Shown here piece by piece: positions 59,775-64,000 of a DNA stretch of 64,000 bases; the first letter of the stretch is position 1; every line of letters begins with the position of its first letter. This stretch comes from Bernardetia sp. Lineage in GTDB: Bacteria > Bacteroidota > Bacteroidia > Cytophagales > Bernardetiaceae. Made by a program: the position numbers and the translations under genes. The notes beneath the pieces were generated by a model that was not told where the DNA came from, made no database searches, and saw nothing but the letters and a program-made list of their open reading frames with translations. The stretch lies in assembly GCA_020630575.1 (NCBI GenBank), contig JAHDBD010000008.1:124001-188000 (forward strand), given 5' to 3'.

Positions 59775-59796
59775 AAAAAACATCTAGTTCAAAAAA

Positions 59797-59833
59797 AGTC
59801 TATGCAAAAGTATAGGCTTTTTTTTTGCCCTTT
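59797..59833 (+). terminator. terminator of the carbamoyltransferase operon
   Basis: Stem AAAAGTCTATGC/GTATAGGCTTTT with one G-U pair, ending in nine T. Confidence 0.75.
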
Positions 59834-60131
59834 TTTAAAAGTAAAATAAATATGATATTTTTGATATAGATTAATTGTGTTTTTTATATAAGCACAATTT
59901 ATTTTTTAAGCTACTTTTAAAGTGTTTGATTTATTTTTAACGTGAAAAAGATTGTTTATTAACATTCCTAATTTGGTTTTTTATAGAAAAAGTGGGTTTT
60001 TTGACTGATTAGCTAATAAAAGAGTGTTTTTTTGTTAAAAAAAGATATAAAATACTAAAAAAAAATTAGTGGGTGAAGTATGATTGATTTATTTCACGAG
60101 TAATTTTTTATTAAAATAAATAGTGTTTTAG

Positions 60132-60162
60132 TTGTGTTTTAAGAAAATGATTTTTACATTTG
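60132..60162 (+). promoter_or_regulatory. promoter of the lanthipeptide cluster
   Basis: TTG at 60132-60134, 20 bases, TACATTTG at 60155-60162, a full match to the Bacteroidota consensus. Transcription would begin near 60169, about 95 bases before the precursor ATG. Confidence 0.65.
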
Positions 60163-60263
60163 TCGTATCAGAAATATAATTTATTTAATTTTGATAACTG
60201 GCGAAATCCGAAAAGCCTTTAAAAGAGTAGGAAAATTAACTAACCTTATTAATCTATTTAAAG

Positions 60264-60440
60264 ATGAAGCTGAAATTAAAAAAAGAAAAAATTGTTGTTT
60301 TGACAGATGAGCAACAAGCATCTATCAACGGTGGACAAGCACCTGCAGAATTAGCTTTGACAGGAAGTCGTTTAATTCATTGTGGTTCTAAAAAAGTTTG
60401 CTCTCATTCATGTAAAGCAATTGTTTGTATTCCTTTGTAA
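60264..60440 (+). CDS. class I lanthipeptide precursor
   Basis: 58 residues. The leader MKLKLKKEKIVVLTDEQQAS runs on to INGG (1-24): a Lys-rich start, LTDEQ helix and double-Gly cleavage site, as in Bacteroidota natural-product precursors. The core (25-58) has Thr33, Ser35, Ser42, Ser47 and Ser49 and Cys40, Cys46, Cys50 and Cys55, enough for up to four (methyl)lanthionine rings, with a hydrophobic, Pro-containing end (AIVCIPL). LanC is encoded 2.5 kb downstream on the same strand. The core looks novel to me; ring pattern cannot be told by eye. It is preceded by a strong promoter. Confidence 0.88.
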   Translation: MKLKLKKEKIVVLTDEQQASINGGQAPAELALTGSRLIHCGSKKVCSHSCKAIVCIPL

Positions 60441-60618
60441 TCTGATAGAAGCTGATTCTCATTTGGCTTCTCTAAATTTAAGACAACTGTACCAAAATTT
60501 TCTCCCCCTTGTTATTGAGCTTTAAATGAAGTTTTAACTTTAAAAAGTAATTTATCTTTATTATATATGAAAGTTTTTCTATTTTCATTAAAGAGCCTTT
60601 GTTAATTTTGGTGCGGTT

Positions 60619-60800
60619 GCCTTATTGTTTATTTTATTCTAAATAAAAAAATCTTGTTTTGACAGGCGAAAAATAAGTAAAGTATCTGTTAAATAGTGGA
60701 GAGGAATTAGCCTTGAGAGGATGTTGTTTAATCGTTTGTGGTTCTAGAAATGAGGGCGAGTGCTTTAATCTTGTAAATTTGTTTTTTGCATTCTTGAGTA
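60619..60800 (+). pseudogene. decayed second lanthipeptide precursor
   Basis: A degenerate copy of the precursor gene. TTGTTTTGACAG (60654-60665) matches the leader region VLTD of the intact gene (60295-60306). GAATTAGC... to ...GGTTCTAGAAAT (60704-60751) matches 60348-60395 at 39 of 48 bases by eye. Translated, it gives ELALRGCCLIVCGSRNEGEC, to compare with ELALTGSRLIHCGSKKVCSH. The leader has no start codon and an in-frame TAA after LTGEK, and the GG site reads SGE. The spacing between the two matching blocks is shorter by exactly 3 bases. It looks like a tandem duplicate that has decayed. Confidence 0.75.
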
Positions 60801-60883
60801 GTCAGAATAAAAAAAAGAAGCTAGACAAGAAATTTATCTTCTTTTTTGAATTAAATTTTAAGTATAGAATCAAAATAGTTTTT

Positions 60884-62095
60884 ATGTGGTATAGAATAGT
60901 GGTATTGTTAGTATTGAATTTATTATTATATAGCCAAATGAGCCAAGCTCAAATAAATGAAAAAATTGCAAATAATCTTAGTGAACAAATTGAAATAGTA
61001 GCATTAGGTGAACCTAATCATTATGATGGAACTATCAATATACATCGCACAGATTTGGTGAAAAAATTAGTTGAAAAAAGAAATTTCAAAATTTTGGCTT
61101 TTGAGTCAAATACATTTGAAATGTATCATTCCTATAAGAAGTTTTTAAAATCAAAAGATCCACAAGATTTATTTAATGGAATATATGCACAGTTTGAATG
61201 CCAAGAGTTAGTTGCCTTATTTGATTTTGTAGAAGAACAAAATAAAAAAGGAGACTCTATTATTATTACTGGTTTTGATAGTAATCATTCTGGAAGGAAA
61301 ACAATGGAGTATCTTCTGCCTGAATTGGATAAATATCTAGCAACTAAGGAATTATTATCTAAAGAAGAGAAAAAAAAATATTATAAAAATCTAAAAAAAA
61401 CAAATACTGTTAATTTGAAAGTTCTTTTTATGAATGGAAACAGGATTGTATCTGAACTTATTCCTCCAACAAAGAGAATAATATCTTCTTTAGAAGAAAA
61501 AACTAACAAGACACAAGATGAACGTTTCTTATTGCAACAGTTGTATAATATTGTTCAGTTACGTGACAATAGGCAAGCCAAAGACAGTATGAGTTTTAGG
61601 AATAGAAGAGATTACTATATGCTCAATAACATAGAATTTTTGAAAAAAGAATATCCAAATCAAAAAATGATTTTGTGGGGAGCTTCGGGACATTTTTTGA
61701 AAGAACCTGCAAAAGTAAATACAGATTTTTTTCAGAATGATCAACTTGTTATTATTGGAAATAGACTCAAAGAAAGATATAAAGAAAAATATTTTCTAAT
61801 TACCTACTCAGTTTTTTCTGGTAGAAAGATAACTAGCTTTGGAACTGTAAAAGTCAAGACTCCAAAAGAAAATACATTAGAGTATTTGGCATTACAAAAA
61901 AGTAAAGAGGGAAAAACAGAGTCTTATTTAATGAATTTTTCTTCACAACTAGATATTCCCCAAACTGAACAAAACCAAGCAATTAATTCTAGAATATTAG
62001 GCTATCAAGATACAGAAATGGAGATACAAGAAGTGTGTGATGCTGTCATTTTCCTCAATAATTGCCAACCTTATACAAAATATAAAGCAAAATAA
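60884..62095 (+). CDS. secreted erythromycin-esterase-like enzyme
   Basis: 403 residues from the ATG at 60884. An earlier in-frame TTG reads through the decayed precursor and is rejected. The signal peptide (1-23, MWYRIVVLLVLNLLLYSQMS, cleaved at AQ) implies export. Erythromycin-esterase-family motifs: ALGEPNHYDG (41-50) with Glu43 and His46, FESN with Glu74, a later RNRRDYYMLNNIEFL, and WGASGHF with a His. The fold hydrolyses esters in EreA-type enzymes, while relatives have other roles. Its stop is one base before the next gene, so it belongs to the lanthipeptide operon. Tailoring, processing or self-protection are all possible. Confidence 0.8.
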   Translation: MWYRIVVLLVLNLLLYSQMSQAQINEKIANNLSEQIEIVALGEPNHYDGTINIHRTDLVKKLVEKRNFKILAFESNTFEMYHSYKKFLKSKDPQDLFNGIYAQFECQELVALFDFVEEQNKKGDSIIITGFDSNHSGRKTMEYLLPELDKYLATKELLSKEEKKKYYKNLKKTNTVNLKVLFMNGNRIVSELIPPTKRIISSLEEKTNKTQDERFLLQQLYNIVQLRDNRQAKDSMSFRNRRDYYMLNNIEFLKKEYPNQKMILWGASGHFLKEPAKVNTDFFQNDQLVIIGNRLKERYKEKYFLITYSVFSGRKITSFGTVKVKTPKENTLEYLALQKSKEGKTESYLMNFSSQLDIPQTEQNQAINSRILGYQDTEMEIQEVCDAVIFLNNCQPYTKYKAK

Positions 62096-62096
62096 T

Positions 62097-62990
62097 ATGA
62101 AACTAGGAATTCTTGATTTAGGACTCATTTCACTAGAAACAGAAAGTTCTGCTGATGTATTAAATAATACTTTTTCTGCTGTTCAACTTGCTGAAGAATT
62201 AGGTTTTGAGAGGTATTGGTTAGCCGAACATCATGCACCTGATACAGCTTGGAGAAATACCGATTTAATGGTTGCTATGGCTGCTGGCTTTACAGAAAAA
62301 ATAAAAGTAGGTTCGGCAGGTGTTATTATATCTGTAAATAATTCGTATAGAGTTGCAAGTAATTTTCGTTTGGCTGCTGCTCTTTATAGTGATAGAATAG
62401 AATTAGGATTAGCAAGAGGTTCGGTTACAGAAACTTATGCAAAGCATTTATTAGATATAGATATTAAAGATGTTGATTTAGAAAAAAAATATGAAGATTT
62501 GATATTGTTTGCACGAAATCAACATACACAAATCCCAGTTCCTCCCTATGGAACTCAAAATCCAGTGCTTTGGACATTAAGTAGTGGCACTGGTGGAATG
62601 GAAAGTGCCATCAAACATAATCTTGATTATTGTATATCTTTATTTCATGGAAATGAATGGAGTCAAGAATTAGCAGAGGCTATCAAAAAATTTAGAGACG
62701 TTTTTTATGAAAAAAATGAGCGTATTCCTAATGTAGTTATTGCATGTGCAGGAGTTTGTAGTGACACAAATGAAAATGCAGAATTGAAATTGAATAATTT
62801 TTTAGGTAATGGCTCAACTTGGAAACCAAATATTACAGGTTCTTATGAAAAGTGTCACGAAGAATTTGAAAAAATAACTAAAGATTCTGGAGTAGAAAAT
62901 TTTGTGTTCTGTGATTTATCACATGCTTCTTTGAAAGAAGAAAATCTACATCATTTAAGCAAATTAATAGAAAATGAAGTATATGGATAA
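62097..62990 (+). CDS. luciferase-like flavin monooxygenase (LLM class)
   Basis: 297 residues from the ATG at 62097 (MKLGILDLGLISLETESSAD); the frame is open 20 codons further upstream inside the esterase gene and this is rejected. LLM features: the first beta strand with LGILDLG, FERYWLAEHHAPDTAWRNTD near 41-60, KVGSAGVIISVNNSYRVAS, and DRIELGLARGSVTETY. It matches MsnO8-type oxidoreductases using reduced flavin and O2. LLM enzymes of this kind recur in Bacteroidota lanthipeptide clusters as tailoring enzymes, but the reaction here is unknown. It overlaps the lanC start by eight bases. Confidence 0.85.
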   Translation: MKLGILDLGLISLETESSADVLNNTFSAVQLAEELGFERYWLAEHHAPDTAWRNTDLMVAMAAGFTEKIKVGSAGVIISVNNSYRVASNFRLAAALYSDRIELGLARGSVTETYAKHLLDIDIKDVDLEKKYEDLILFARNQHTQIPVPPYGTQNPVLWTLSSGTGGMESAIKHNLDYCISLFHGNEWSQELAEAIKKFRDVFYEKNERIPNVVIACAGVCSDTNENAELKLNNFLGNGSTWKPNITGSYEKCHEEFEKITKDSGVENFVFCDLSHASLKEENLHHLSKLIENEVYG

Positions 62991-64000
62991 TAATGATATT
63001 TTAAATTATTTTGATATTCAAAGTGAGGTTTTTTTTCAAAACACAAGTCTTATAGGAAATCTAGGCAGTTTATATCTTCTCTCAAATATAGATTCAACAA
63101 AAACAGAGGAGTTATTAGAAAAATTTTATGTAGAAGTACAAAACGCATCTTTTGTTCCTTCAAATATCTATGGACTCTCTGGAATTGGACTTTTGCTCAC
63201 TTATTTGGATAAAGTAAACCCATCTGTTTTCAATTCTCACAAAACAGAGTTTGTAGCTGATTTTGCTGATGATATTTATGATAATGCACTTCAAATGAGT
63301 AAAGAGCTAAATTATGATACATTTGAAGGTATTGTTTCAGTTCTCAATTTTTTTATTGCTTCTGAACAAAAACAAAAAACACATCAAACTTTACTTTTAC
63401 TTCAAACTATTTCCTTACAACTTTATCAAAATGATAAATTAAATGACTTTGGTTTAGCACATGGAATTTGTGGAATTATTGCAGGACTTTGCAAGGGTTT
63501 TCTTCATCTTAAAGATTCTCTAAAGATAAAAGAAAAAGAAGAAATTGAAACTACTATTGCTTTATTGACTGAACATGTATTGACCCATGAATTAGAAAAT
63601 AATCACTACTGTTTTCCCATGAATACAGAACAAGAATATAGTAGATTAGCTTGGTGTTATGGAGATTTATCTGTTTCTATTGCGCTGACTTGGGTTATGT
63701 TGGTATTTCCTAAAAATGAAAAAGTAAAGAAAAAACTTTCATATACGTTAGATAATGCCATAAATTTGAAAGACAATCAAAGAAATTATCTAGTCAATAA
63801 TACAGATATAGATAATATTATTTTTGATTTGGGTTTGTGTCATGGCTTGGCTGGAAATTGTCTGATTTTTAAGAGAATCAATGAAGTATTTCCTAAAAAA
63901 GAATTACAAACTGAAATAAAAAGACTTGAAAATGAAATTACCAAAGTTTTAGAGAAGGATAAATTTGATACAAAACTACCTATTCCTAATCAAGAAAATG
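62983..64000 (+). CDS. lanthipeptide cyclase LanC (partial, window end)
   Basis: 339 codons are seen and the gene runs off the right edge. LanC adds cysteines to dehydrated Ser/Thr to close (methyl)lanthionine rings. Key residues match NisC: zinc ligands C225 (LAWCYGD), C286 and H287 (LCHGLAG), with R221 four residues before C225 and catalytic His160 in AHGICG. The alpha-alpha barrel repeats are visible (IYGLSGIGLLL, LAHGICGIIAGL). Start: ATG at 62983; an in-frame ATG at 62974 is possible. No LanB dehydratase is in the window, so the cluster must continue to the right. Confidence 0.9.
   Translation, partial: MDNNDILNYFDIQSEVFFQNTSLIGNLGSLYLLSNIDSTKTEELLEKFYVEVQNASFVPSNIYGLSGIGLLLTYLDKVNPSVFNSHKTEFVADFADDIYDNALQMSKELNYDTFEGIVSVLNFFIASEQKQKTHQTLLLLQTISLQLYQNDKLNDFGLAHGICGIIAGLCKGFLHLKDSLKIKEKEEIETTIALLTEHVLTHELENNHYCFPMNTEQEYSRLAWCYGDLSVSIALTWVMLVFPKNEKVKKKLSYTLDNAINLKDNQRNYLVNNTDIDNIIFDLGLCHGLAGNCLIFKRINEVFPKKELQTEIKRLENEITKVLEKDKFDTKLPIPNQEN

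Follow-up and report, generated by a model that had tools for sequence, protein, structure and literature searches.

We analyzed a 64,000-nt stretch of DNA from Bernardetia sp. (GenBank assembly GCA_020630575.1, contig JAHDBD010000008.1; hereafter, the window), the right end of which carries a class I lanthipeptide operon. The operon includes a luciferase-like monooxygenase (LLM) gene of a kind that marks many lanthipeptide loci in Bacteroidota, and an accessory gene for a protein of the erythromycin esterase (Ere) fold, which is rare beside LanB. The window's genome is labeled G000, a second genome of the same species G084, the sister species G002, and other genomes of the genus G001, G003, G004, and G005. 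The window spans positions 124001–188000 of G000 contig C36; it ends inside LanC, and the contig extends 6,692 bases further. The genes, in window coordinates, are as follows.

60264..60440, (+) strand: LanA precursor, 58 amino acids (aa); leader end ASINGG, core QAPAELALTGSRLIHCGSKKVCSHSCKAIVCIPL (five Ser/Thr, four Cys)
60641..60793, (+) strand: second precursor gene, a broken remnant (blastn to the G002 precursors; alignment with G084 and G002)
60884..62095, (+) strand: Ere-fold protein predicted to be exported, 403 aa; PF05139, N-terminal signal peptide recognized by eye (MWYRIVVLLVLNLLLYSQMSQAQ)
62097..62990, (+) strand: LLM, 297 aa; PF00296
62983..64000, (+) strand, continuing beyond the window to 64125 (whole gene L003:3984-5126): LanC cyclase, 380 aa; PF05147
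L003:5221-8337, i.e., 64220-67336 counted on, 220 to 3336 bases past the window end: LanB, 1038 aa; PF04738 and PF14028

A class I lanthipeptide operon

A first-pass annotation had placed the precursor, the remnant precursor, and the Ere-like, LLM, and LanC genes on one strand, and every part was found where it had been claimed. The Ere-like protein matched PF05139 at 67.8 bits (cut-off, 26.4), the LLM matched PF00296 at 79.4 bits (cut-off, 27.9), and LanC matched PF05147 at 73.7 bits for the part within the window and 90.5 bits for the whole protein (cut-off, 23.2). The WCYG and CHG motifs of LanC align with structure 8byk, as expected of a separate LanC cyclase. LanB, which had been expected to the right, starts 94 bases downstream of LanC, so that the gene does lie within the roughly 15 kb in which it was to be sought. 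It carries Lant_dehydr_N (PF04738; 411.2 bits) and Lant_dehydr_C (PF14028; 223.1 bits) in a single chain and matches the NisB structure 4wd9 with an E-value of 1.4e-35. The precursor leader matched the NCBIfam model NF038153 (lant_leader_L1a) at 28.2 bits (cut-off, 22). With LanB, a separate LanC, and this leader match in place, we regard the assignment of the locus as a class I lanthipeptide operon as nearly certain.

Other details of the annotation fared less well. The single base (62096) between the Ere and LLM genes is as described, and the 8-base overlap of LLM and LanC (62983-62990) holds if LanC starts at its second ATG, but the first ATG (62974) gives an overlap of 17 bases, so the figure depends on the choice of start. 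The "one consensus promoter" (TTTACA-16-TATAAT, 60153-60180) indeed matches at 11 of 12 positions, but it does not stand out: the stretch 59775-60900 contains four promoter-like sites compared with 5.4 (standard deviation, 2.3) in shuffled sequences, and both hexamers are changed in G002. Since such sites are no more frequent than in shuffles, we rejected the promoter as evidence for an operon. The transporter expected just to the right is absent, LanB being followed by rpoN on the (−) strand (named by eye) and an EamA protein up to the end of the G000 contig. No linked exporter was found in G000 up to the contig end or in the 6.7 kb seen to the right of LanB in G084, which holds the same genes as G000. 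C39 peptidase domains occur at four places in G000, all on other contigs, one of them barely passing (22.2 bits versus 22).

The gene order precursor, Ere, LLM, LanC, LanB, rpoN is kept in G084 and G002. Between G000 and G002, amino acid identity is 90% for the LLM, 76% for LanB, 72% for LanC, and 69% for the Ere protein, with 89% for the precursor over 55 aligned residues. The precursors of G000 and G084 are identical at 57 of 58 residues, and G002 has two homologs, both intact; the five Ser/Thr and four Cys positions are common to all four cores (by eye). The remnant precursor aligns with the two intact G002 precursors (best blastn piece, E-value of 7.65e-21), and its breaks are mostly the same in G000 and G084. 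Elsewhere in the genus, none of LanB, Ere, and LLM was found in G001 or G004, and LanB was the only one of the three in G003. G005 shows an Ere homolog (41–45% identity) and neither LanB nor LLM; the homolog lies near a contig end, and completeness of this assembly is estimated at 92%.

Two further observations concern the surroundings. In G002, the two precursors are directly preceded, on their own strand, by an open reading frame (ORF) resembling an ATP-binding cassette (ABC) ATPase (by eye; L027:14750-15808), and neither G000 nor G084 has this ORF there. A second class I locus is present in G000 (L004:4716-12328; G000:C59), with two LanC genes, one LanB gene, and four precursor-like ORFs whose leaders score 17–19 bits, below the NF038153 cut-off of 22. 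Its neighbors are genes for a biopterin-dependent hydroxylase and a glyoxalase-family (HPPD-like) protein, and this stretch has no LLM or Ere match.

An LLM clade associated with LanB across Bacteroidota

An alignment of the LLMs of the window, G002, and G031 was searched against 390 genomes of the order, with up to six candidates scored per genome. Nineteen matches reached at least 195 bits, the next following only at 129 bits, and each of the 19 has a LanB match no more than 7.2 kb away. They come from 14 of the 103 LanB-bearing genomes. As three are themselves query sequences and one is from the same-species genome, 15 of these genes are independent, at 11 loci in 10 genomes. Among the matches listed, none of 50 lower-scoring ones picked by hand, and thus not at random, was within 20 kb of a listed LanB. 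The score gap has exceptions, among them two weak relatives near LanB in G037 and G041 (48.8 and 45.7 bits); the second (L044:6369-6653) is an LLM-like fragment that is interrupted by an in-frame stop codon and situated roughly 3 kb away from LanB.

A hidden Markov model built from the LLMs of known LanB loci was then applied to a collection of 84,980 species, yielding at least 588 pattern matches, of which the best 80 loci were used. Ten of these scored at least 258 bits, and nine have LanB within 9 kb (in pieces at L120); the tenth, L126, shares a contig with L125 and lies about 16 kb from the LanB of L125. None of the remaining 70 (181 bits or less) has LanB. The contig of one of the top loci, L128 (Dyadobacter crusticola), is apparently that of G348 from the order sample, the two LLMs being identical, which leaves eight named genomes as new. 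A tree of 59 LLM rows, 58 of them different, placed all 28 rows labeled with LanB (L126 included), together with L124, on one branch with a support of 100/100, and 30 of the 31 rows labeled without LanB on the opposite side; as the rows were chosen by hand, the tree shows separation and not frequency. The window LLM sits on a long branch, its nearest rows being poorly supported. The named organisms bearing the clade are all Bacteroidota: Saprospiraceae, Chryseobacterium, Flavobacterium, Flavobacteriaceae (L124), Tenacibaculum, Gynurincola, Longitalea, Dyadobacter, Lewinella, and Cytophagales.

Several of these loci differ in make-up. At L124 (2666-7604), a further exception to the score gap, a clade LLM adjoins a precursor-like ORF and what looks by eye like a C39-type ABC transporter, and neither LanB nor LanC was found on the 10-kb contig. 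Tandem LLM pairs stand beside several precursor-like ORFs in the lanthipeptide loci L105, L107, L108, and L109. At L100 (15598-18042), a protein with CarboxypepD_reg and outer-membrane beta-barrel (OMP_b-brl_3) domains heads a LanC-LanC-LLM gene series; similar genes of 800 aa occur in other LLM loci, the family assignment coming from the L100 copy alone.

As to its chemistry, the window LLM looks like a flavin mononucleotide (FMN)-type monooxygenase. It scored 141.2 bits against the MsnO8 family (TIGR03558), under the curated cut-off of 166.95, and the structures closest to it are mostly oxygen-using FMN enzymes. The F420 marker cofD (TIGR01819) had no match at an E-value of 0.001 in any of the 14 LLM-bearing genomes (completeness 84.5% for G000 and at least 96% for the rest), compared with six of 14 genomes in a control set, three of them above the cut-off. 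The absence of cofD makes an F420-type LanJC identity unlikely, an argument that applies to F420 and not to other cofactors.

An Ere-fold protein rare beside LanB

The accessory protein has a complete Ere fold and exceeds the PF05139 gathering cut-off, which places it in that superfamily. An erythromycin esterase proper was rejected, with scores of 23.2 and 22.1 bits against the NCBIfam EreA and EreB models versus cut-offs of 750. Residues H46, E74, and H270 are conserved in all 10 aligned relatives. The sole solved relative found by sequence, EreC, was deposited as an H289N mutant; a weak alignment pairs position 289 with H270 and the other motif His with A267, so the residue mutated for the EreC crystals is retained here.

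The phylum sample comprised 306 genomes, with 57 Ere-family and 41 LanB matches listed and up to three LanB candidates scored per genome. Among these matches, judged by eye, only one of the 57 Ere matches lies within 20 kb of LanB, namely the window's own, and we therefore rejected a broad Ere-LanB partnership. In the sample of 390 genomes of the order, 26 have an Ere match and, again by eye among the matches listed (which include the LanB places of all but one of the 26, G300), four have an Ere-LanB pair: G000, G084, G002, and G120. The "unusual tailoring set" of the first-pass annotation thus applies to the Ere-fold protein, whereas the LLM recurs beside LanB across Bacteroidota. The pairing in G120 (L112:6627-17264; G120:C97) is of a different make and lacks an LLM: an 806-aa Ere-fold protein with a CarbopepD_reg domain directly precedes a leader-like small ORF (MKKLKLNKEVLSSLDKSEMSQVKGG), accompanied by LanC, LanB, a C39 transporter, and a HlyD-like protein (by eye).

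The Ere gene also differs from its neighbors in its divergence. Between G000 and G084, synonymous divergence (dS) is 0.10–0.16 for the carbamoyltransferase gene, the precursor, LLM, LanC, LanB, and rpoN, but 0.78 for Ere, with a nonsynonymous divergence (dN) of 0.125. In 40-codon windows, dS of Ere is 0 for codons 1–40 and then 0.58–1.21, one window being saturated. The within-species value is near the dS of 0.74–1.10 that separates LLM, LanC, LanB, and rpoN of G000 or G084 from those of G002. The plain reading is that the mature part of the gene was replaced by a divergent allele in one lineage, in a single event. LanC codons 201–280 are also elevated (dS of 0.41–0.53). Within the species, dN/dS is 0.03 for LLM, 0.16 for LanB, and 0.18 for LanC.

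Proposed pathway and alternatives

The best overall explanation, which we put forward tentatively, combines the operon with an oxidizing LLM and a protective Ere-fold protein. LanB would carry out Glu-tRNA-dependent glutamylation and then dehydration of core Ser/Thr residues, and LanC would use the four Cys to form as many as four thioether rings. The LLM would oxidize the peptide in an FMNH2/O2-dependent reaction, most likely converting one thioether sulfur to a sulfoxide. An unlinked C39 ABC transporter may cleave after GG and export the peptide in trans, and the Ere-fold protein would be exported via its predicted signal peptide and function extracytoplasmically, most likely as a hydrolase shielding the producer from the product. 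The parts carry different weight: the LLM very probably acts on the operon's peptide and the Ere protein is probably part of the pathway, while sulfoxide formation, rather than other chemistry, is a tentative assignment. The GarO protein of actagardine is an LLM that forms a sulfoxide.

Several points weigh against this explanation. FMN and F420 enzymes differ little in Z, the lanthipeptide LLM roles described in the passages covered are in dehydroalanine reduction (PMC7268733 and PMC8498797), and no passage covered names an LLM for sulfoxide formation. In the Ere-fold protein, A267 stands in for the other His of HNxH, a motif that relatives such as L117 carry, and E43 corresponds to Asp in the G084, G002, and G005 proteins. 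The precursors are 57/58 identical although the Ere alleles differ, so Ere is not tracking the core. Finally, the second precursor has decayed, and the family search for immunity genes covered some of the neighboring genes; in G002, the ABC-ATPase-like ORF lies upstream of the precursors.

The LLM might instead be a reductase, hydrogenating the one dehydro residue without a Cys partner to a D-amino acid as proposed for LanJC, with reduced FMN replacing F420. An LLM named LanJC was proposed for dehydro-residue reduction in birimositide (passages of PMC7268733), LxmJ performs the reduction with F420H2 in lexapeptide (passages of PMC8498797), and all four cores have one Ser/Thr more than Cys (five versus four, by eye). 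We nevertheless consider a reductase unlikely, given the lack of cofD in all 14 LLM genomes and the mostly oxygen-using FMN enzymes among the nearest structures. For the Ere-fold protein, the alternative is a role in maturation, as a hydrolase trimming or completing the peptide after export. The tight coupling of its gene to that of the LLM (1 base before it in G000, G002, and G084) suggests such a role, no peptidase was recognized within the operon, an Ere-fold protein stands beside a leader-like small ORF at L112 as well, and the same two roles were left open for an Ere homolog in graspetide loci (passages of PMC8939145). Against it, unlinked C39 domains are available for the GG cut, L112 has a C39 transporter as well as its Ere protein, and the G005 homolog is found without LanB; we consider maturation somewhat doubtful. 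Export, fast change, and a homolog without LanB together suggest protection, toward which we lean weakly, at a little under an even chance. A dying locus, losing its precursor copies and no longer making a product, would fit the remnant precursor in both genomes of the species and the lack of a linked exporter; it is very improbable in view of the intact, nearly invariant first precursor, the low within-species dN/dS values, and the fact that all enzyme genes are open.

Relation to known systems

Among Bacteroidota, the pinensin cluster of Chitinophaga likewise encodes a class I lanthipeptide, but the pinensin LanB is split (passages of PMC7268733), whereas the LanB described here is one 1038-aa protein with both domains. 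The Chryseobacterium OV715 (Chm) and Runella limosa (Rui) clusters likewise contain LanA, LanB, and LanC; their account covers expression of A, B, and C, and its main text does not use the words luciferase or monooxygenase (PMC9993889). LanJC and LxmJ resemble our LLM in being LLM-type enzymes adjoining a lanthipeptide synthetase, but they come from Streptomyces and from class II-type (birimositide) and class V (lexapeptide) settings, with F420H2 used by LxmJ, while the operon here is class I (passages of PMC7268733 and PMC8498797). Erythromycin esterases and the Bacillus cereus "succinoglycan biosynthesis protein" structures (2qgm, 2rad, and 3b55) are among the closest known systems to the Ere-fold protein, which differs from them in falling far below the EreA/EreB cut-offs and in having Ala for the first His of HNxH. 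In titles, abstract openings, and selected passages, we recognized no report that places an LLM or an Ere protein in class I lanthipeptide clusters of Bacteroidota; outside this scope lie PMC9716278 and PMC6288392, which both contain "erythromycin esterase" and "lanthipeptide," as well as the Pfam tables in the supplement of PMC7268733, where LLMs of class I clusters might be listed.

At the date of one survey, pinensins were the only lanthipeptides isolated from Bacteroidota despite common class I clusters (passages of PMC7268733). A more far-reaching picture, which we think rather improbable as a whole, is that the LLM clade is a phylum-wide, FMN-using tailoring family of class I lanthipeptides introducing a modification new to Bacteroidota, to which this operon adds a novel form of lanthipeptide self-protection: an exported Ere-fold hydrolase, the alleles of which move between strains without any change in the peptide. 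An LLM clade that marks lanthipeptide loci in several Bacteroidota families offers a search handle and poses a clear chemical question, and the Ere-fold protein, if exported as predicted, is a candidate for either role, peptide maturation or self-protection; for an Ere homolog in other peptide loci, the same choice was left open (passages of PMC8939145).

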